Positions 35,719-48,319 of a stretch of DNA of 64,000 nucleotides are shown in pieces (position 1 is the first letter of the stretch; each line of letters opens with the position of its first letter). The position numbers and the translations under genes were made by a program. Location of the stretch: NCBI GenBank assembly GCA_016788375.1, contig JAEUSI010000005.1:1-64000 (forward strand), read 5' to 3'. Source of the stretch: Ignavibacteria bacterium (lineage in GTDB: Bacteria; Bacteroidota; Ignavibacteria; Tepidaquicellales; Tepidaquicellaceae). The notes under the pieces are model-generated. The model was not told the DNA's origin. It made no database searches and saw only the letters and a list, made by a program, of their open reading frames with translations.

Positions 35719-35738
35719 TTGTAAAAAATTTTTTACAA
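35719..35738. promoter_or_regulatory. Perfect 20-bp palindrome, candidate operator
   Basis: The sequence TTGTAAAAAA is followed directly by its exact reverse complement TTTTTTACAA. It ends 10 bases before the TTG start of the cysteine-rich gene, where a bound repressor would block transcription or translation initiation. The A/T-rich centre means part of the symmetry could be chance. Confidence 0.45.
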
Positions 35739-35748
35739 AAGAATAATA

Positions 35749-36111
35749 TTGAAAAATCTCAGAAAAATATTCTGTCTGTTTTTAACGATGATTTTATTTC
35801 TTCACGTAAATTATCTGTCAGTATATTATTCTTTATACAAATTAAATTCAGAAGAACTTACAAGAAGCTGCTGCGAAAAGAAAGTTGCCGGATGCAACGC
35901 GAAATGCTATGTTCAGAAAAAAATGAATGATGACAGCAGCAGCAGAGGCAGACATGAATCTCCCGAGATCAAGCTTAAAATCTCGGAGTTTAATCAATCC
36001 GAAGAAAATTACATCTCGCCCGATATCTATACTGAAATATACTACCCGAATAAAATAAATAATCTGCTGAAGGGATATGTATCTGAAAATGATCATCCCC
36101 CCGAGTTGTAA
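35749..36111 (+). CDS. Small cysteine-rich membrane-anchored protein
   Basis: A 120-residue protein starting at TTG. It has one N-terminal hydrophobic helix (about 7-28), then a cysteine cluster C41, C42, C49, C53 (RSCCEKKVAGCNAKCYV), followed by a hydrophilic tail. The layout resembles a Bacteroidota family of small proteins with a CE-K-x-C-x-x-K-C motif, often encoded near metal or TonB genes. I cannot name a function; cysteine-based metal binding near the membrane is a guess. First of three same-strand genes ending at a terminator. Confidence 0.65.
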   Translation: MKNLRKIFCLFLTMILFLHVNYLSVYYSLYKLNSEELTRSCCEKKVAGCNAKCYVQKKMNDDSSSRGRHESPEIKLKISEFNQSEENYISPDIYTEIYYPNKINNLLKGYVSENDHPPEL

Positions 36112-36151
36112 TCCTTAACAGAAATCATTTAAAATCTCTTAAGAATTGCTT

Positions 36152-36169
36152 CTGATACAATTGTATCAG
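36152..36169. promoter_or_regulatory. Perfect 18-bp palindrome, candidate operator
   Basis: CTGATACAA followed directly by TTGTATCAG, a perfect inverted repeat in the 91-base gap before the histidine-rich lipoprotein gene, 33 bases before its ATG. It contains the same TACAA/TTGTA half-sites as the palindrome at 35719 but in the opposite order. A regulator site is plausible; which regulator is unknown. Confidence 0.5.
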
Positions 36170-36202
36170 TCAATTTATTAATTTAAAATTATTTATTTTA
36201 TC

Positions 36203-37030
36203 ATGAAAAGAAAAACATCCGTTTCAATATTGATATTTATTATACTGATAAATTTACCATTTATTTTTACATCATGCTCGGACGATTCAAATCCGTCTGC
36301 GCCGGATGAACCTGTAACAACGCAGCTTATCCTGCTTGATTCGGCATATGCTGAAGGTGCAAGAGCCAATGTTTATCTTTATACGGAAGATACGCTGCAT
36401 GTAGGATACAATCCGGTATACATTGTTCTGCATGATTCACTTACAAATCAGATTATTACCGACGCTCACGTGGAGTTTGATATTGTAAATCACGGACATA
36501 ATGTCCCGGTTGAAAATCCTGCTTCGAGTAATGCAGTTGACGGAAAATTTCCGGGTGCATTTATTCTTAATACTTCACAAACCGGAGACGAAATAATGCA
36601 TTATCATTATCACGTAATTGTGCATAATCATCAGGCACCGGGAAAGCCGGAAGGTGAAGCAGCATTTTCGGATTTTATTGTTAAGGAAAACCCGGATAAG
36701 TTTAAATCTATCGTTATGAGCGACAGTACAAAATTATACTTGTCATACATTACTCCGAAAAACCCGGCTTCCGGTCTGAATGATTTCGAATTCCTCATTA
36801 ACAGAAATGAGCCGGAGCTCTTTCCGCCAGACGGAACATTTACAATCGCTGTAACACCTGAATTTCTGAGTGATCTTCATACAACTTCCGGAAATACAAA
36901 TCCCGTTCATACTACGATCGGGCATTACAAGGGCAAAATCAGCCTTGACAGAAGCGGCTCATGGAGAATAAAGCTCAATGTTTCAAAGAACGGAATTTCT
37001 TACGATACATCATTTGAACTGAGTTATTAA
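36203..37030 (+). CDS. Histidine-rich lipoprotein with YtkA-like domain
   Basis: A 275-residue lipoprotein (lipobox FTSC, Cys25). The mature part contains two beta-sandwich-like modules; the first is strikingly His-rich (VNHGHNVP, then MHYHYHVIVHNHQAPG) and looks like a YtkA/FixH-type domain of the sort linked to copper handling. The second (about 165-275) lacks the histidines except HTTIGHY. A metal-binding outer-leaflet or periplasmic role is likely but inferred. Stop is 13 bases from the next gene's start, so they are co-transcribed. Confidence 0.65.
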   Translation: MKRKTSVSILIFIILINLPFIFTSCSDDSNPSAPDEPVTTQLILLDSAYAEGARANVYLYTEDTLHVGYNPVYIVLHDSLTNQIITDAHVEFDIVNHGHNVPVENPASSNAVDGKFPGAFILNTSQTGDEIMHYHYHVIVHNHQAPGKPEGEAAFSDFIVKENPDKFKSIVMSDSTKLYLSYITPKNPASGLNDFEFLINRNEPELFPPDGTFTIAVTPEFLSDLHTTSGNTNPVHTTIGHYKGKISLDRSGSWRIKLNVSKNGISYDTSFELSY

Positions 37031-37043
37031 AAATTTTAAATAT

Positions 37044-38051
37044 ATGAATAAGTTATATCTTGTAATATTCTTTCTGATTTCTTTTTCTTCTGTTTTTGCC
37101 GGAGAAAATCCGGATAAAGACTTATTGAAAAATATTAAAAAGCTGTCGGATATTTCCGGGATAAATGAAAATTCCCTGAAAGGCGACATATCAGAAACCG
37201 GTTGTGATCTCTGCGGTTGTTACATGGGACTTGAACCGAATTTCAACATGAATTCTGTCGGGGTGAGATTCTCATCTTTTAAGTTTTACTCGCCTGCTCA
37301 TACAGCCCCGGACGGGAATTCCGATCATCCTTCAGACGGTTCCGAGTCGACTGAGTATTATTCAAACATAGATGTTTATATCAGATATTATATAAATCCG
37401 AAATTCAGAATTATTGCTACTATTCCGTTTTCATTCAACGAGATTAATACAAAAAAACTGAACGGATTCGGAGATCTTGTAACAATTGCACAATATCAGA
37501 TTTACAATACAAACATGACGGCAGAAACAAATTTCTGGCAGCGAATTTTTCTCGGCGGAGGTTTTAAATTTCCTACAGGGGTTTACAATAAATCTCTTGT
37601 ATACTACGGGACAGTCGAACCTCATTTTCAGCCGGGCACGGGAAGCTTTGATTTTATGTTTTCCGGTCTTTATATCGCAAAGCTGGAAAATACAGGCATC
37701 GGCTGGAGGAATGATTTTATTTATACCGTCAGCACTGCAAATAAAAATGACTACCGTTTTTCAAACAGATTTAATGTTGCATCTACTTTCACATATGAAA
37801 TAGACACAGAGACTCTTACTTTTCTTCCGCATACAGGACTGTATTTTGAATCTGCTGGTGAAGATGAAGATGCAGGCCAGCCTGTAACTGACTCCGGAGG
37901 AGATATTTTATTCGGGACAGGAGGAGTTGATGTGTTTTACGGAGATTATTCTCTGGATTTTAATTATACATTTCCGATCAGCGAGAAACTTAACGGTGAT
38001 CAGCCGCAGAATGAATACAGGTTTTTTATAGGACTGGGATTTGCATTCTGA
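37044..38051 (+). CDS. Outer-membrane beta-barrel protein with CxxCxC motif
   Basis: A 335-residue exported protein with a signal peptide (about 1-19). After a short helical stretch comes CDLCGCYMG (C54, C57, C59), followed by an alternating amphipathic, Tyr/Phe-rich sequence (IDVYIRYYINPKFRI, GLYFES, NEYRFFIGLGFAF) that ends in Phe, as outer-membrane barrels do. Bacteroidota homologues with a CDxCGC motif are annotated as transporter-like. Together with the upstream Cys- and His-rich proteins it suggests metal handling; the barrel call is firmer than the role. Confidence 0.7.
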   Translation: MNKLYLVIFFLISFSSVFAGENPDKDLLKNIKKLSDISGINENSLKGDISETGCDLCGCYMGLEPNFNMNSVGVRFSSFKFYSPAHTAPDGNSDHPSDGSESTEYYSNIDVYIRYYINPKFRIIATIPFSFNEINTKKLNGFGDLVTIAQYQIYNTNMTAETNFWQRIFLGGGFKFPTGVYNKSLVYYGTVEPHFQPGTGSFDFMFSGLYIAKLENTGIGWRNDFIYTVSTANKNDYRFSNRFNVASTFTYEIDTETLTFLPHTGLYFESAGEDEDAGQPVTDSGGDILFGTGGVDVFYGDYSLDFNYTFPISEKLNGDQPQNEYRFFIGLGFAF

Positions 38052-38073: not shown

Positions 38074-38111
38074 AAAAAAGTGAAGCTGATTTTTTTAAGC
38101 TTCACTTTTTT
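38074..38111. terminator. Bidirectional Rho-independent terminator
   Basis: A 14-bp stem (38074-38087 with 38098-38111) with a 10-base loop, bounded by A runs on one side and T runs on the other, so each strand reads a stem followed by U residues. It lies between two convergent genes, the outer-membrane protein (ends 38051) and the DUF1028 gene (ends 38116). Confidence 0.85.
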
Positions 38112-40693: not shown

Positions 40694-43117
40694 ATGAACA
40701 ATTCTGCTTTCAGATCATTTTCCCGTCTGATTTTATTCCTCACGGTGTTATTTTTATTAAATTACGGTTTTACTTATGCTCAGTACGGCTCACTTTCAGG
40801 AAAGGTCACGGACAGAATAACGGGTCTGGCATTAAACGGAACTGAAGTTAAAATCAGATTCAGCAGTTTCAAATCAGTTACGGATGATGAGGGATTTTTT
40901 TTTATAAGTAATATACCTGCCGGGAAATATTCAGTTCTGATTAAGCAAATCGGATACACTGAATCAGAGCAGAGCGTTGTTATCACAGAAAATGAAATTA
41001 CAAAAATTGAAGTTGAACTTGTCTCATCCGAAATAGAAACCGGCGAGATTAAAGTTTCGAGTGTACGCTATGAAACGATGATTAAAGATGTGGCTGTTCC
41101 GATGGAAGTAATATCTTCGGAAGACATTCTGAGAAGACCGGTGAGCAATGTTTCTGAATCTCTCGCAGATAAAGCGGGTATTTCACTGACACGCGACGGA
41201 ATATGGGCTGCGGATATAAGCATACGCGGACTCAGCAAATCCGGAATTGTGATTTTAATTGACGGAAACAGGGTTGAGACTGCTAATGATCTTTCTGCGA
41301 GACTTTCAATGATTGAGATTTCTGATGTGGAAAGGATTGAAGTCATAAAAGGCGGGGCATCTTCTTTGTACGGAACGGGGGCTGTCGGAGGCATAGTGAA
41401 TGTATTTACAAAAGAGGGAAGGTTTGAGAAGAAGCTTAACTTCGGCGGTTCACTAATCAGCGGATACAATTCAGTCAATAAAAACGGAAGCATCTGGATG
41501 TCACTGAATGCAGGCGCCGGGAAATGGTTTGCCAAGCTGACAGGAAGTTTCAGAAAAGCTTCGGATATAATGACTCCTGCAGGAGAAGTGCCGAACAGTC
41601 AGTTTACAGATTACAATTTTTCCGCCAAACTGGGATACAAGCCTTTTACTGATCAGAAAATCAAGTTAACATTTGAAAACTATAAGGCTGAAGACGTCGG
41701 TATACCGGGAGGATATCCTTTGTTTCCGCAGAATGCGCTTGTGACTTATCCTCTTGAAAAACGGAATTTGTTTTCCGCAGAATATATAATCAACAATCTC
41801 TCCGGAAAATTCGGACAGCTGTCCTTCAAGTATTTTTATCAGTATATATTAAGGGATGTTGAAAATATTCCTTATACATTTCAGATAAAACCAGCGGGAA
41901 ACGGTCAGCCGAAGCAAAAAATTTCGGTTCTGGAAATATCCCCGACAGGTAAACACTACACAAATGAATTGCAGATCCAGTCCGACTGGAATTTCGGGAA
42001 GCAGAATTTTTTTATTGCAGGAATAGAAGCATGGCAGAGAAATCTTGACAGCAAAAGAGAAAGAGATCTGAGGATTGAAACCTATGATTCCTCGGGTACA
42101 AATGTAATCAGCACTGTATACAAGACAGTCGGCGAAAAACCTTTGCCGGATGCTTCATATACAAGTATCGGAATTTTTTTACAGGATGAGATTAAACTTT
42201 ATAATAACAGGCTGAAAATCATTCTCGGAGCAAGGGCAGACAGGATCAGCGTATCCAACACTGAAACCATGCAGCCTTATTATGAAATTTCAGGAGGCAT
42301 TATCAATTTAACTCCTGCAGGACAGAAAATTATCTGGAATGCCGGATCTTCGGAAGATTATTCATGGAGCGGTAATGCAGGGTCAGTATATTCTTTAAAC
42401 AAATCAGTTGACCTGACAATCAATGTTTCCCGTTCATTCAGATCTCCGTCTCTTGAAGAGCGTTATCAGTATATTGACCTCGGGAGTTTAATACGTGTCG
42501 GGAATCCTTACCTTTCTCCCGAAAACGGATTATCAACAGATTTGGGATTAAGAATTTGGAAAAACAGTTTTAATTTTTCAGGTGATGTATTTTACAATTC
42601 TTTCAGTAATCTTGTTACGGAAATTCCGGGAGTTTATGAAGGACGCAGTGCATTGATTAAAACTAATATCGGCAGTGCAGTGCTTTACGGTTATGATTTT
42701 AATTTTAATTACAACTTCTATAAAAGTTTTGTTGCATACGGAGTGATGTCTTATGTAAGAGGCGAAGATACTGAAGAAAATCTGAACCTGCCTCAGATAC
42801 CTCCTCTGAATTTCAGAATCGGAATGAAATTTTCACTTCCCGGCTTTATTTATGCGGATCTGAATTCTGTTATATATGCGAGGCAATCTAACACTGCGCT
42901 TTCCGAAATATCAACCGCCGGTTTTGCAGTTTTTAATGCTGAATTCAGTACGCAGTATTTTGGGTTTAAAGGAACAGGTGAAACTAAATATTTAGTAACA
43001 GCTGGTGTTTCAAATATACTTGATAAAGAATACAGAAATTTTCTCACGACTAACAGAGGTTCATATACTTCCGAATCCGGCATTAATCTGTTTATTAAAT
43101 TCAAAATAGATATGTAA
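40694..43117 (+). CDS. TonB-dependent outer-membrane receptor
   Basis: An 807-residue outer-membrane receptor: signal peptide (about 1-29), a carboxypeptidase regulatory-like domain (about 33-115, GSLSGKVTDRITGLALNG), a plug (about 125-240, IKDVAVPMEVISSEDI, KGGASSLYGTGAVGGIVNV) and a 22-strand-type barrel to the C-terminus. It imports a ligand such as a metal chelate or vitamin using TonB energy. The sequence is closest in style to siderophore/colicin-type receptors, but the ligand is unknown. No ExbBD/TonB genes are in the window. Confidence 0.92.
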   Translation: MNNSAFRSFSRLILFLTVLFLLNYGFTYAQYGSLSGKVTDRITGLALNGTEVKIRFSSFKSVTDDEGFFFISNIPAGKYSVLIKQIGYTESEQSVVITENEITKIEVELVSSEIETGEIKVSSVRYETMIKDVAVPMEVISSEDILRRPVSNVSESLADKAGISLTRDGIWAADISIRGLSKSGIVILIDGNRVETANDLSARLSMIEISDVERIEVIKGGASSLYGTGAVGGIVNVFTKEGRFEKKLNFGGSLISGYNSVNKNGSIWMSLNAGAGKWFAKLTGSFRKASDIMTPAGEVPNSQFTDYNFSAKLGYKPFTDQKIKLTFENYKAEDVGIPGGYPLFPQNALVTYPLEKRNLFSAEYIINNLSGKFGQLSFKYFYQYILRDVENIPYTFQIKPAGNGQPKQKISVLEISPTGKHYTNELQIQSDWNFGKQNFFIAGIEAWQRNLDSKRERDLRIETYDSSGTNVISTVYKTVGEKPLPDASYTSIGIFLQDEIKLYNNRLKIILGARADRISVSNTETMQPYYEISGGIINLTPAGQKIIWNAGSSEDYSWSGNAGSVYSLNKSVDLTINVSRSFRSPSLEERYQYIDLGSLIRVGNPYLSPENGLSTDLGLRIWKNSFNFSGDVFYNSFSNLVTEIPGVYEGRSALIKTNIGSAVLYGYDFNFNYNFYKSFVAYGVMSYVRGEDTEENLNLPQIPPLNFRIGMKFSLPGFIYADLNSVIYARQSNTALSEISTAGFAVFNAEFSTQYFGFKGTGETKYLVTAGVSNILDKEYRNFLTTNRGSYTSESGINLFIKFKIDM

Positions 43118-43255: not shown

Positions 43256-43864
43256 ATGAAAACCAGCTTAATATTAACAGTTGCATTACTGTTAAACTGC
43301 TTATTCCCCGTAAGATCATTTTCTCAGATATCAGAAGAAGAATCCGCAATAATTATCAGCATGAAAGATAAAGAAAAGCTTACTTATGATGTTTATTATT
43401 CGCTTAATGAAAAATACAATTCGGATATTTTCAAAAAGATGATACAGAATGAACTTCAGCACAAGGAACTTTCAGCCGGACTTGCCGGGAAATTCGGAAT
43501 TAACATTTCTGTAAATTCAGATAATGAAGTCGGGAAGTTTTCCAATCCGAAAGATCAGAATATTTATGATGAAATGATGAGATACGGAGGCTATTCTCTT
43601 CTTGATGCATTCAGAGCCGGTGCCAGAATGGAAGAAATAAACATAAGCGAGCAGTCGGATTACATATCTAAATCTTCCGATGAAGAAGTAATAAAAGTGT
43701 TTGAAATTATTGAGAAGGGTTCTGAAGAGCAGCTGAGAACTTTTGTAAGGGAACTTCAGGAAGAAGGAATTACATACAAGCCTAACAAGCTTTCGCAGGA
43801 AGAATATGACAGGATTGTATCCGTTAAGGATGAAAACAAAGCCAAAAAGGACAAGAATAACTGA
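43256..43864 (+). CDS. Exported DUF2202 ferritin-like protein
   Basis: A 202-residue protein with a signal peptide (about 1-22, ending SFSQ). The mature part matches DUF2202, a helical ferritin-like family: KEKLTYDVYYSLNEKYNSDIF, then KKMIQNELQHKEL (E..xxH pattern that would bind metal), and ELREEG-like terminal helices. Family members are linked to metal or peroxide handling only by structure. It follows the TonB receptor by 138 bases with its own ribosome-binding site. Confidence 0.78.
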   Translation: MKTSLILTVALLLNCLFPVRSFSQISEEESAIIISMKDKEKLTYDVYYSLNEKYNSDIFKKMIQNELQHKELSAGLAGKFGINISVNSDNEVGKFSNPKDQNIYDEMMRYGGYSLLDAFRAGARMEEINISEQSDYISKSSDEEVIKVFEIIEKGSEEQLRTFVRELQEEGITYKPNKLSQEEYDRIVSVKDENKAKKDKNN

Positions 43865-44133: not shown

Positions 44134-44808
44134 ATGAGCAATGCAAACAGAAATCTTAACATCACAAAAGCCAGCCACATTTCCTCCACTCTCAGAAATG
44201 CAATAATATTCGGAGATCTGAAGCCGGGTGAAAAAATAACCGAGAGCAGAATCTCAAAAAAGTTCAACACAAGCCATATACCCGTCAGAGAAGCGCTTAA
44301 ACAGCTTGAGAGAGAAGGTTACATTGAGAGCAAGCCGTATTCAGGCAACAATGTCCGCAGCACAAGCTATCATAATCTTGCCGAATACAATACTATTCAC
44401 AAAATGTTTATCAGAAACTTTCTGAAACCTGCTGTACAGCAGTACACTGAAGCTGATTTCAGGAAGTTTAACGAGATAATAAAGAAAATGGAAAAGAGCG
44501 TTGATTACAGGGAAGCAAGTCTGCTTATGATTGAACTCAATGAACTGCTTTATGAACCTGTAAAGATGCCTTATATGTCTCTTCTGCTTAAGAAATTTTT
44601 ATATGATAATCTGATTTACATCAGTATTTATCTTAAGGAGATTTCGAAAGGAAACATTAATACTGAAGCAATAAAAAAGTTTCTGAAGCTCTGCCGGGAT
44701 AAAAAGATTAAAGAAGCAGTTTCGTTCTGGATAAAAACCCAGGATGAAGAGACAAAAGTGCTTATAGATCACTTTAAAAAGGAAATAAAGGAAAAATTTT
44801 TCCTGTAA
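44134..44808 (+). CDS. GntR-family transcriptional regulator
   Basis: A 224-residue regulator. Residues about 12-78 form the GntR winged helix-turn-helix (LRNAIIFGDLKPGEKITESRI, FNTSHIPVREALKQLEREGYIES). The C-terminal 140 residues are all helical like an FCD effector domain, but the histidines that usually bind metal and ligand are not visible (LNELLYEP stands where a FH motif is common). Located 31 bases upstream of hydC on the same strand, so it probably belongs to and controls the hydrogenase operon. Confidence 0.88.
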   Translation: MSNANRNLNITKASHISSTLRNAIIFGDLKPGEKITESRISKKFNTSHIPVREALKQLEREGYIESKPYSGNNVRSTSYHNLAEYNTIHKMFIRNFLKPAVQQYTEADFRKFNEIIKKMEKSVDYREASLLMIELNELLYEPVKMPYMSLLLKKFLYDNLIYISIYLKEISKGNINTEAIKKFLKLCRDKKIKEAVSFWIKTQDEETKVLIDHFKKEIKEKFFL

Positions 44809-44839: not shown

Positions 44840-45307
44840 ATGAATGCAAACGGAACATTAATAAAGGAACTTGCCGATAAATACGGGAGAGAGAGGACAT
44901 CATTGCTGCCGATATTTCAGGGAATTACAGACAAGAATAATTACCTTACGGAGGAAGATCTGACTCAGATAGCGGCAGAGCTGCATTTATCCGGAGCGCA
45001 GGTATTCGGCACAGCATCGTTTTATTCTTTTCTTAACATGGTGCCGAGAGGGAAATACGTAATCAGAGTTTGCAAGACTATATCATGCGATATGAAAAAC
45101 AGGAGAGAAATAACAGAACAAATTGAAGATATGCTTAAAATCAGTACAGGCGAGACCACAGAAGACAAAAAATTTACGCTGCTTTATACAAACTGTATGG
45201 GCTGGTGCGATAAAGCTCCGAGCATGCTTATAAATGAAACACCGTATACAAATCTCACTCCGGCAAAAGTTCAGACCATATTAAAAGAATATATTGAAAA
45301 AGAATAA
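44840..45307 (+). CDS. hydC: [FeFe] hydrogenase subunit HydC (NuoE-like)
   Basis: A 155-residue thioredoxin-like 2Fe-2S protein of the NuoE/HydC family. The four cluster ligands are C78 and C83 (VCKTISCDM) and C119 and C123 (TNCMGWC). In trimeric NAD-linked hydrogenases HydC passes electrons between the flavin subunit and the rest. First of three tightly packed genes, 24 bases before hydB. Confidence 0.93.
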   Translation: MNANGTLIKELADKYGRERTSLLPIFQGITDKNNYLTEEDLTQIAAELHLSGAQVFGTASFYSFLNMVPRGKYVIRVCKTISCDMKNRREITEQIEDMLKISTGETTEDKKFTLLYTNCMGWCDKAPSMLINETPYTNLTPAKVQTILKEYIEKE

Positions 45308-45331
45308 CAAATTATTTCGGGAGATAATAAA

Positions 45332-46501
45332 ATGACAGAAGGAAAGAAAATTAACAGAATAGACAGTATTTTCAAAGAATATGCTGACGATAAGTTTGAT
45401 TATCTGAAAATGATAAGCGAAATGTCGAATGATAAAATAATCAGGGATTTAACTGAATCCGGTTTGAGAGGAAGAGGAGGTGCAGGATTCCCGACCGGAG
45501 ATAAATGGAAATATGCAGCAGCCGAGCCCGGAGACGAAAAATACGTTATCTGCAATGCGGATGAAGGCGAACCCGGTACGTTTAAAGATAAAGAAATTCT
45601 CATGAAAGTACCTCACAAAGTGCTTACAGGTATGACTGCATGTGCAAAGGTAACAGGTGCGAAAAAAGGCTACATATATCTGAGATGGGAATATAAATTC
45701 ATGAGAAATGATCTGCAGAAATTCACTGATGAGTTTAACAGGGTTCTGAAAGATATGAATATAGATTTTGAAATAGGAATTGTTACCGGCGCTGGCGCTT
45801 ATGTCTGCGGAGAGGAAAGCGCTTTGTTTGATTCGATGGAAGGAATGCGCGGAGAGCCGAGAAACAAACCTCCGTTTCCGACTGCAAGCGGATTTATGAA
45901 TAAGCCTACAGTCATAAATAATGTTGAAACTTTTGCGGCTTCGACTATGATACTGCTGTTCGGAGGAAAGAGCTATGCAAAGCTCGGTACGGATTTTTCG
46001 CACGGTTCAAAATTATTCTGTGTCTCGGGAGATACAGATAAGCCGGGGATATACGAACTCGAGTTAGGAATGACACTTCACGAATTTGTGGAAAAATTCG
46101 GTGACGGAGATACAAAAGCTGTATCGGTCGGAGGAGTCTCAGGAGCGCTTGTTCCGAGAAAAAAATTCAAGGATACTGTAATTGGCTGGGAAGGTGTGCC
46201 TACCGGAGGAGCAATGATACTCTTCAACAGTACACGTTCAATTTATCATATTCTTCACAACTATCTGGAATTTTTTGAGGAGGAATCATGCGGCCAGTGC
46301 ACGCCGTGCAGAATCGGCTGCCAGCAGCTGAGGAAAGGAATAGAAGAAATAAAGAAGGGTGAAATGGATCCGTCTTATCTGGATACACTTTCAAACCTGA
46401 GCAAAGTAATGAATGTAACCGCAAAGTGCGGACTGGGTCAGTCGGTAATGAATCCTTTTACTTCTGCGGTAACCAATTTTAAAGAAGAGCTGTTATATTA
46501 A
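45332..46501 (+). CDS. hydB: [FeFe] hydrogenase subunit HydB (NuoF-like)
   Basis: A 389-residue NuoF-type flavoprotein that binds FMN and NAD(H). Motifs: GLRGRGGAGFPTGDKW (46-59), NADEGEPGTFKD (75-86), GAGAYVCGEESAL, an SLBB-type segment, and a 4Fe-4S site C320, C323, C326 and C366 (CGQCTPCRIGC). Unlike T. maritima HydB it has neither the N-terminal thioredoxin-like domain nor C-terminal ferredoxin-like clusters, so it is the minimal form. A GGGAG sequence precedes its ATG. Confidence 0.94.
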   Translation: MTEGKKINRIDSIFKEYADDKFDYLKMISEMSNDKIIRDLTESGLRGRGGAGFPTGDKWKYAAAEPGDEKYVICNADEGEPGTFKDKEILMKVPHKVLTGMTACAKVTGAKKGYIYLRWEYKFMRNDLQKFTDEFNRVLKDMNIDFEIGIVTGAGAYVCGEESALFDSMEGMRGEPRNKPPFPTASGFMNKPTVINNVETFAASTMILLFGGKSYAKLGTDFSHGSKLFCVSGDTDKPGIYELELGMTLHEFVEKFGDGDTKAVSVGGVSGALVPRKKFKDTVIGWEGVPTGGAMILFNSTRSIYHILHNYLEFFEEESCGQCTPCRIGCQQLRKGIEEIKKGEMDPSYLDTLSNLSKVMNVTAKCGLGQSVMNPFTSAVTNFKEELLY

Positions 46502-46522
46502 AATTCAAAACTTACAATTGAG

Positions 46523-48319
46523 ATGAAAAAATTAATAAACTTAACTATCGATGATCAGAAAATTGCCGTAATGGAAGGAACAACTATACTTGAAGCAGCA
46601 AAAAAATCAGGGATTAATATTCCTACTTTGTGTTATCACGAAGACCTGTGTATAGCAGGAAACTGCAGAATTTGTATTGTCGAACAGGAAAATACCAGAG
46701 CTTTGCCGGCTGCATGTGCCACACCCGTGACCGAAGGTATGGTTATTTCCACAACAAGTTCAAAAGTAAGAAATGCAAGAAAATATCTTGTTGAACTCCT
46801 TTTATCCGAACACAATGCAGACTGTACTGCCTGTGTTAAAAACAGACACTGTGAACTTCAGACTCTTGCAGAACAAAATCATATCAGAGAACATACCTTT
46901 ATAGATCTAAAGTTTGATAAAAATTATACTATAGACAAATTAAGTCCGGCTATTATTATTGACTACAGTAAATGCATCAGATGTCAGAGATGCGTAAGAA
47001 CCTGCGAGGAAATTCAGTCAATTAGCGCATTAAGCGCTGCTTACAAAGGCAAGGATATGAAGATTACTACTTTCTTCGAAAAGCCAATCAATACCGTTGT
47101 ATGCTCGACTTGCGGTCAGTGCGTTGCTCACTGTCCGACAGGCGCTCTTACTGAACATTTTTACATTGACGAAGTATGGGATGCAATTAACAATCCGGAC
47201 AAGCATGTTGTTGTTCAGACTGCGCCGTCTATTCGCGTTGCTCTGGGTGAAGAGTTCGGAATGCCTCCCGGATCAATTGTAACCGGGAAAATGGTTTCTG
47301 CTCTGAAAAGAATAGGATTTGACAGTGTTGAGGACACTGATTTTACGGCGGACCTGACTGTGATTGAAGAAGGAAATGAACTCTTAAGAAGGCTGAAATC
47401 GAAAATTGTGGATAAAGATCCGAATGTAAAACTTCCGATGATTACTACCTGCTCCCCTGCCTGGGTAAAATACTGCGAGCATGCATTCCCGGATCAGCTG
47501 GATCATCTGTCAACATGCAAATCTCCGATGTCTATGTTCGGAGCTTTATCAAAGACTTATTATGCAGAAAAATTCAAAATTGATCCCGCAAAAATCGTAT
47601 CCGTAGCAATAATGCCGTGCATCGCAAAGAAATTCGAAAGCAACCGTCCCGAAATGAATGCAAGCGGTTACAGGGACACGGATTATGTCCTGACAACTCG
47701 TGAATTAGCTGTAATGATTAAACAGGCAGGTATAGATTTCAACAAGCTTCCTGAAACTAACTTTGATTCTCTGATGGGTGTTGCTTCAGGAGCAGGAATG
47801 ATATTCGGAAATTCCGGAGGCGTCATGGAAGCTGCTCTGAGATGCGCATATGAAATAGTCGTGGGAAATGACATTCCGTTTAAAGATCTTTCGATTACTC
47901 CTCTGCACGGAAGCGAAGGTGAAATAGTCGAACTTTCGCTTACTTTCAGAGACACAAAACCGGAATGGAGTTTTCTTGAAGGTGTGACAGTCAATCTTGC
48001 TCATGCCAATATGCTGAGCAATGCATATAAAATAATGAATGAAGTAAAGGATGGAAATTCCAAGTATCATTTCATAGAGATAATGTCCTGTCCGAACGGA
48101 TGCATCGGCGGTGCAGGCCAGCCTCTGCCTACAAGCAGGGAAAAGAGAGCTGCAAGAAAAGATGCAATTTACAAAGGGGAAAAACAGATTGAGATAAGGA
48201 AAGCGCAGGATAATCCGCAGATAGTGAATGTGTATGATGATTATCTCGGAAAACCTCTTGAAGAAAAAGCTCATAAACTTCTGCACGTTCCGGGATTTAC
48301 TCCGAGGAAGCGGCATTAA
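46523..48319 (+). CDS. hydA: [FeFe] hydrogenase catalytic subunit HydA
   Basis: A 598-residue enzyme that makes or oxidises H2. N-terminal plant-type 2Fe-2S (C37, C48, C51, C65), His-Cys3 4Fe-4S (H97, C101, C104, C110), two 4Fe-4S clusters (C151-C161 and C194-C204), then the H-cluster domain with L1 TTCSPAW (309-314 region), L2 MPCIAKKFE (C366) and L3 EIMSCPNGCIGG (C523, C527). It ends like the monomeric clostridial enzyme, with no extra C-terminal 2Fe-2S domain. With HydB and HydC it probably forms an NAD(H)/ferredoxin-coupled trimer. The maturases HydE, HydF and HydG are not in the window. Confidence 0.96.
   Translation: MKKLINLTIDDQKIAVMEGTTILEAAKKSGINIPTLCYHEDLCIAGNCRICIVEQENTRALPAACATPVTEGMVISTTSSKVRNARKYLVELLLSEHNADCTACVKNRHCELQTLAEQNHIREHTFIDLKFDKNYTIDKLSPAIIIDYSKCIRCQRCVRTCEEIQSISALSAAYKGKDMKITTFFEKPINTVVCSTCGQCVAHCPTGALTEHFYIDEVWDAINNPDKHVVVQTAPSIRVALGEEFGMPPGSIVTGKMVSALKRIGFDSVEDTDFTADLTVIEEGNELLRRLKSKIVDKDPNVKLPMITTCSPAWVKYCEHAFPDQLDHLSTCKSPMSMFGALSKTYYAEKFKIDPAKIVSVAIMPCIAKKFESNRPEMNASGYRDTDYVLTTRELAVMIKQAGIDFNKLPETNFDSLMGVASGAGMIFGNSGGVMEAALRCAYEIVVGNDIPFKDLSITPLHGSEGEIVELSLTFRDTKPEWSFLEGVTVNLAHANMLSNAYKIMNEVKDGNSKYHFIEIMSCPNGCIGGAGQPLPTSREKRAARKDAIYKGEKQIEIRKAQDNPQIVNVYDDYLGKPLEEKAHKLLHVPGFTPRKRH

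Follow-up and report, generated by a model that had tools for sequence, protein, structure and literature searches.

Three adjacent genes of an Ignavibacteria bacterium raise the question of whether their products handle a metal in the cell envelope, which metal this would be, and how the genes are controlled. The original prediction, made from the DNA sequence, described a membrane-anchored protein with four cysteines, a lipoprotein with HGH and HYHYHVIVHNH stretches and an outer-membrane barrel with CDLCGC, and proposed that together they form an envelope path for a soft metal such as copper or zinc. We analysed the locus within a window of 64,000 nt, which is the whole stretch of DNA under study and comes from a 3.5-Mb draft genome. 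The three open reading frames, here called P1, P2 and P3, exist as predicted, at the correct coordinates and on the same strand, with gaps of 91 nt (P1-P2) and 13 nt (P2-P3). The features of the locus are as follows.

35719..35738, no strand: perfect 20-nt palindrome TTGTAAAAAATTTTTTACAA just upstream of P1, a possible operator, found in the window only
35749..36111, plus strand: P1, a 120-aa candidate copper-sensing leader with a TTG start
35872..35907, plus strand: cysteine core of P1, C42-EKKVAG-C49-NAK-C53 (CX6CxxxC)
36097..36102, plus strand: Pro117-Pro118 codons of P1, a putative stall site two residues before the stop
36140..36180, plus strand: hairpin between the P1 stop and the P2 start, stem CUGAUAC/GUAUCAG, -11.6 kcal/mol, z -5.2
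36152..36169: palindrome CTGATACAATTGTATCAG between P1 and P2
36203..37030, plus strand: P2, a 275-aa two-domain YtkA-like His-rich lipoprotein related to the copper-binding CrdA
37044..38051, plus strand: P3, a 335-aa predicted 12-strand outer-membrane channel with the FapF/COG4313 fold and an N-terminal CDLCGC
38074..38111, plus strand: terminator-like hairpin after P3, arms AAAAAAGUGAAGCU / AGCUUCACUUUUUU, -16.8 kcal/mol, z -5.0

Boundaries and surroundings of the gene set

In close relatives, P1 starts with TTG (GTG in one), and P2 and P3 with ATG. Downstream of P3, the terminator that had been predicted is borne out by the strong hairpin at 38074-38111 (-16.8 kcal/mol), beside a convergent DUF1028 gene. 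The palindromes, which had been thought to frame the set, are both real, and two perfect palindromes of at least 18 nt within 174 nt of equally AT-rich sequence arose in 0 of 400 simulations. However, the second one sits inside the set, in the gap between P1 and P2, so they do not frame the genes. No equivalent of either was found in eight relatives, and for this reason we rejected them as conserved operators. The CopY-like core TACAATTGTA within CTGATACAATTGTATCAG is thus a curiosity, as the second palindrome is not conserved.

With regard to RNA, the hairpin at 36140-36180 is a possible regulatory stem-loop. Hairpins occur in the P1-P2 gap of most close relatives, and the gaps that follow P1 modestly exceed control gaps in structure (mean z -1.9 vs -1.1, p = 3e-4), though gaps shorter than about 60 nt mostly lack hairpins. 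The RNA structure of these gaps is too weak to bear an argument alone. An Rfam search over the window gave RNase P and one tRNA only, and no known riboswitch before P1.

The gene upstream of P1 (32567-35665, plus strand) encodes a single 1032-aa protein that joins a class III cyclase domain, an NB-ARC ATPase and TPR repeats, an unusual signalling fusion. Farther downstream, a TonB receptor (40694-43117, plus strand) moderately matches models of several receptor types, including hemin and copper receptors. We tried it as a further member of the operon and excluded it because the terminator and two opposite-strand genes intervene. It is followed by a gene for a 202-aa secreted protein, DUF2202/ferritin-like by eye (43256-43864, plus strand), likewise outside the operon. 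Then come an apparent GntR-like regulator (44134-44808) and three genes (44840-48319, plus strand) that, judged by sequence, resemble a NuoE/NuoF-type pair and an [FeFe]-hydrogenase of the trimeric, electron-bifurcating type.

Recurrence of the three genes in copper loci

The three families co-occur in other genomes. Among 197 genomes of the class, relatives of P2 are present in 37, of P3 in 32 and of P1 in 22, and the complete P1-P2-P3 set recurs in the same order and orientation in six genomes besides that of the window (L106-L111). The genes upstream of P1 vary among these six. The repetition of the order in six other genomes indicates that it is not due to chance; moreover, no unrelated known function came to light for the families. 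In a contig search with a narrow P3 alignment, the nine loci obtained were all from metagenome-assembled genomes of Ignavibacteria/Ignavibacteriae or unclassified Bacteroidetes, and viral contigs held no P3 relative.

Partial sets are also common in the class. P1 and P3 occur without P2 in L117, L116, L086-L088, L123-L125, L103 and L101; P1-P2 is followed by a TonB receptor or a receptor-size protein in L112, L113, L115, L118, L119, L122 and L098; and in L089, L120 and L121, the gene directly after P1 encodes a TonB receptor or a protein as large as one. In these arrangements, P1 is the constant element, and P3 and the TonB receptor are alternative outer-membrane partners. In two P1-TonB receptor operons, the receptor is followed by a lipoprotein-like BNR-repeat (propeller) gene (L121 12948-14231, L120 12299-13636), whose product is possibly a further copper partner.

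Several loci with relatives of P1 or P2 lie within nitrous oxide reductase (nos) gene clusters. The order is NosZ-x-NosL-P2-TonB receptor-NosD in L094 and L097 (in L094, the receptor and NosD were named by position and by similarity to other loci), NosL-P1-P2-TonB receptor-NosD-NosF in L122, and NosF-x-P1-P2-TonB receptor in L098, where x is probably NosY. The genome of the window has its own nos operon on another contig (L206 10205-16023, contig 309) in the order NosZ, x, NosL, NosD, NosF, NosY, with NosZ identified by Pfam and NosL, NosD, NosF and NosY by position and sequence. Between its NosL and NosD, where the relatives have P2 and a TonB receptor, there is nothing, which would fit a P1-P2-P3 set sited elsewhere in the same genome. 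P3 also lies directly after an MbnH-type CCP_MauG gene in three sampled loci (L090, L100 and L091), one of which (L091) has the order P1-MbnP-like-MbnH-P3.

On the scale of the phylum, the P1 profile is present in 164 of 395 Bacteroidota genomes (~40%), with up to five copies in one genome (G441). We retrieved 40 P1 loci outside the close set. The first gene after P1 (n=43) encodes a TonB plug in 18 cases, MbnP in 11 and Phenol_MetA_deg in 3, and the second (n=35) encodes an MbnH-type CCP_MauG protein in 12, PepSY_TM in 6 and SCO1 in 3. Of the 18 TonB-plug genes, 12 show some degree of similarity to the copper-receptor model TIGR01778 or match it below its cut-off, and the receptors also hit models of other types.

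The suspected link to copper is thus strengthened by NosZ, NosL, NosD, NosF, TonB receptors, MbnP-MbnH, PepSY_TM and SCO1 near the families, and by the resemblance of P2 to the copper-binding CrdA. It is well supported, and we consider it highly probable, that P1-P2-P3 is a conserved copper operon.

P1 resembles a sensing leader

P1 could not be placed in any named Pfam or NCBIfam family, and nothing consistent emerged even at E 1-5. No member matches DUF2946 (PF11162) at E <= 1, and a search for DUF2946 in 61 class genomes, that of the window among them, found none. The protein consists of a hydrophobic N-terminal segment, a CC(X6)CxxxC core, a variable linker and a C-terminal DHPPEL-stop. 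The hydrophobic segment is visible at about residues 8-30 in the members of the family. The description as a membrane-anchored protein with four cysteines was right in that four (C41, C42, C49 and C53) lie outside this segment, with a fifth (C9) inside it.

Conservation is concentrated at two points. In the class alignment of 28 members, no residue other than C42, C53 and P118 is shared by all, with C49 and P117 close behind; the P1 of one class member (L120) ends in PSPIPIV, without adjacent prolines. Among 73 homologues across the phylum, C42 and C53 are present in all and C49 in 99%, and a Pro-Pro lies at most 10 residues from the end in 70 of the 73 aligned. In the other ORFs of the same loci, Pro-Pro occurs within the last 11 residues of just 12 of 611. 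Its contexts are mostly FHPP, DHPP or FRPP (HPP/RPP), and it is encoded by 15 different codon pairs, which argues for selection on the protein rather than on the DNA. The distance from C53 to Pro-Pro is 66.2 +/- 2.4 residues (range 61-73; 5-95%: 62-71; n=70 with both C53 and Pro-Pro), and in the window 63 residues lie between CxxxC and Pro-Pro. The linker itself is free to vary: the commonest residue has a frequency of 0.21 per column, against 0.99 for Pro-Pro.

The position of the gene is also constant. P1 heads its operon, a same-strand gene follows it in 71 of 74 homologues (in the other three, a short antisense ORF is listed first), and each operon has one copy, even where two such operons are adjacent, as in the tandem operons of L167, L189, L190 and L195. 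In one tandem example, P1-MbnP-MbnH stands beside P1-TonB receptor-PepSY_TM.

Because of the CX6CxxxC core, the variable linker of fixed length, the C-terminal Pro-Pro, the first position and the separate copy for each operon, it is likely but unproven that P1 is a copper-sensing leader of the CutF/CruR kind known from Proteobacteria, with putative stalling at Pro-Pro, rather than a metal carrier. A nascent chain spans roughly 30-35 residues in the ribosome tunnel and about 30 in the translocon. The span of about 66 residues in P1 would therefore set the cysteines beyond the Sec channel while Pro-Pro is at the peptidyl-transferase centre.

Alternatively, P1 might act as a stable protein, a membrane-anchored copper binder or chaperone from which P2 and P3 receive copper. 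In favour of this are its hydrophobic anchor, the conserved CX6CxxxC on its presumed outer face, and the copper proteins encoded next to it. However, its linker varies freely yet keeps its length, the C-terminal Pro-Pro is the best-conserved feature besides the cysteine core, and P1 comes first in the operon, with adjacent operons each having their own copy. It is not evident why a chaperone would need any of these features, and we consider this explanation unlikely. Thus, of the three-part envelope path that had been proposed, the copper or metal reading stands, but P1 as a component of the path is probably wrong.

P2 and the identity of the metal

P2 has the predicted features of a lipoprotein with HGH and HYHYHVIVHNH: a lipobox with Cys25, which is invariant in the family, NHGHN at about residues 96-100, and HYHYHVIVHNH at 133-143. 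Its predicted model has two Ig-like domains. The YtkA-like family PF13115 is matched by 19 of 22 members of the P2 family (best E 9e-23), and P2 of the window falls just under the Pfam cut-off of 25.9 bits (23.0 bits, E 1.2e-4). The P2 profile matches CrdA of Helicobacter pylori (9ll2) over the second domain (E 2.8e-5). The fold search with the P2 model also found CrdA (TM 0.61 on target), although other Ig-like proteins equal or beat it by E-value; as the Ig-like fold is so common, the sequence match to CrdA outweighs the fold match. We also considered MbnP: no match was found to the MbnP profiles (PF20243 / TIGR04052), and hhalign against 13 mostly MbnP proteins gave 53% probability with no meaningful alignment, so P2 was rejected as an MbnP.

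Most members of the P2 family carry the motifs PGMMxHSxP and PSMGHGS, a Met/His pattern that occurs in copper proteins. In the window and its close relatives, these are replaced with the His-rich NHGHxxPV and LADGHTTSG, respectively. Given this exchange, the proteins of this branch might handle zinc or some other ion instead of copper. On the other hand, the cysteine core of P1 and the CDxCxC of P3 are unchanged, the relatives of P1-P3 remain in copper contexts, and Cu(II) sites are also His-rich. A metal other than copper is accordingly quite improbable.

P3 and the direction of transport

The prediction of an outer-membrane barrel gained support from modelling. The AlphaFold2 model of P3 is a 12-strand barrel (mean pLDDT 68), and its best Foldseek matches are 5o67 and 4rl8 (E about 1e-8; TM 0.5-0.6 on query). 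The CDLCGC motif lies at residues 54-59, within the N-terminal 60 residues that are of low confidence in the model, and is presumably periplasmic; among 23 members, C54 and C57 are invariant and D55 and C59 are conserved in more than 90%. No Pfam match was found, and none of the 23 members matches Phenol_MetA_deg (PF13557) at E <= 0.01. P3 does not look like a TonB-dependent receptor, as it has no Plug and, with 335 aa, about 12 strands compared with a 22-strand barrel, and it holds the position of the TonB receptor in sister operons. P3 is a candidate non-TonB outer-membrane copper channel.

The nearest characterised relative of P2, CrdA, is a copper-resistance determinant, a role that speaks for efflux no less than for import. 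In an operon for copper efflux or detoxification, P1 would act like CutF (more copper, more P2 and P3), P2 like CrdA, and P3 as the exit channel. This would suit the name of CrdA, the closest solved relative of P2, the increase of CutO production by CutF under copper (PMC9973294), the absence of a TonB plug from P3, and its fold relative FapF, which is a secretion channel. However, no RND pump, CopA ATPase or multicopper oxidase was seen beside the sampled P1-P2-P3 sets, for which part of the neighbours were family-searched. Moreover, the other partners of P2 are TonB receptors and nos genes, which speak for supply, and across the phylum P1 usually stands with a TonB receptor, which in several loci is joined by PepSY_TM, the arrangement known from CruR-BfrG. 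We therefore find an efflux operon rather doubtful and lean, with moderate confidence, towards import.

A model for the operon

The gene order, the families, the conservation pattern, the copper-gene neighbourhoods and the predicted folds, all read from sequence, are best explained, to our mind with reasonable probability, by an envelope copper operon with its own translated sensor. That the metal is copper, that the ribosome stalls, and the sign of control and direction of transport are what we infer from them. During synthesis of P1, its N-terminal segment would enter the membrane and the CX6CxxxC core would emerge outside, while the ribosome arrives at Pro-Pro, two codons before the stop. 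Copper bound to the cysteines may then alter the length of the pause at Pro-Pro, and the pause would set the output of P2 and P3 via the downstream hairpin or via termination between P1 and P2. P2, the CrdA-like lipoprotein, would bind copper in the periplasm or at the outer membrane, and P3, plug-less and with CDxCxC ahead of its barrel, would pass or hand over copper across the outer membrane. The likeliest use would be the supply of copper enzymes such as the N2O reductase of this genome.

A wider generalisation can be put forward tentatively: the P1 family may be a class of exported arrest peptides that sense copper, spread throughout Bacteroidota and distinct from the DUF2946/RAPP leaders, with a ruler of about 66 residues and each tuning its own operon. 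Under this generalisation, the span would correspond to the tunnel plus the Sec channel, so that the cysteines would probe the copper of the periplasm at the very moment when the ribosome occupies Pro-Pro, and the plug-less CDxCxC channel P3 would replace the TonB receptor in one version of an outer-membrane copper operon.

Implications

Little is known of how Bacteroidota take up copper and regulate this uptake. Should P1 prove to sense copper as a nascent chain, the 164 of 395 sampled genomes of the phylum would carry at least one metal-sensing leader unnamed by Pfam or NCBIfam, and any gene after P1 would become a suspect for copper handling. By the ruler argument, a leader that senses the periplasm (about 66 residues) could be told apart from CruR (45), whose activity does not depend on its signal sequence. 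The tandem P1-headed operons (L167, L189, L190, L195 and G441) offer a natural set for differences in copper threshold between leaders. Finally, the analysis connects the P1-P2-P3 set with the provision of copper to N2O reductase, whose activity removes a greenhouse gas.

Comparison with known systems

The original prediction knew of no described system with this exact composition. This holds for the trio among openly licensed papers, but each part has a known relative. The kind of leader is already known, since the CutF study counted many Bacteroidota proteins in its list of 'CutF-like' proteins (PMC9973294). In openly licensed papers, we found no account of the P1 family, of the rule for its spacing or of its association with P2 and P3.

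In many Bacteroidota, P1 is followed by MbnP-MbnH where P2 would otherwise stand, and in L091 P3 comes next, whereas the operon of the window has no MbnH and its P2 is not MbnP. The predicted 12-strand barrel of P3 shares the fold of the COG4313 / FapF channels (PDB 4rl8, 5o65) but has no sequence-family match to them, and it differs in the conserved CDxCxC before the barrel and in its copper loci. CrdA of H. pylori (PDB 9ll2/9ll4) is matched by the second domain of P2 in both profile and fold; P2 differs from CrdA and YtkA-like proteins in being a lipoprotein with two Ig-like domains, and the window copy is His-rich, not Met-rich.

CutF-CutO-CutG of Rhodobacter capsulatus has in common with P1 a small, in P1 presumably exported, Cys protein with CxxxC and Pro-Pro near the C-terminus, encoded by the first gene, with a short gap containing a stem-loop and a copper gene downstream. 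CutF is recognised by CxxxC and a PP-rich end, and its motif did not act as a strong arrest sequence in a standard assay (PMC9973294). P1 fits the search rules of that study on length (fewer than 150 aa), on Pro-Pro (within the final 15 residues), on the metal motif (Cys or His) and on the neighbour (same strand, within 1000 nt), with 120 aa, PP at 117-118, C49NAKC53 as CxxxC, and P2 at 91 nt. For the N-terminal Sec signal peptide among these rules, P1 offers a candidate in its hydrophobic segment at about residues 8-30. Unlike CutF, P1 has no match to DUF2946, the family of CruR and CutF, and it is followed by a lipoprotein and an outer-membrane channel instead of a multicopper oxidase.

CruR, which is recognised by CXXC-45 residues-RAPP with a spacing constant within one or two residues, precedes a TonB receptor and then PepSY_TM in the CruR-BfrG-BP2921 layout of Bordetella pertussis (PMC9426467). 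Arrest of CruR at its Pro-Pro was shown in vitro, RAPP and RGPP are the contexts shown to arrest, and no copper uORFs with RAPP/RGPP turned up among Bacteroidota in a survey (PMC12992588). In CruR-BfrG(CrtA)-PepSY_TM (PMC9426467, PMC12914433), a leader with a Cys motif and a C-terminal Pro-Pro at constant spacing heads a TonB receptor and PepSY_TM, and Bacteroidota P1 does the same in several genomes. P1 differs in having CxxxC-about 66 residues-(H/R)PP, without RAPP. CruR works without its signal sequence, whereas the longer spacing of P1 would suit emergence of the cysteines past the Sec channel.
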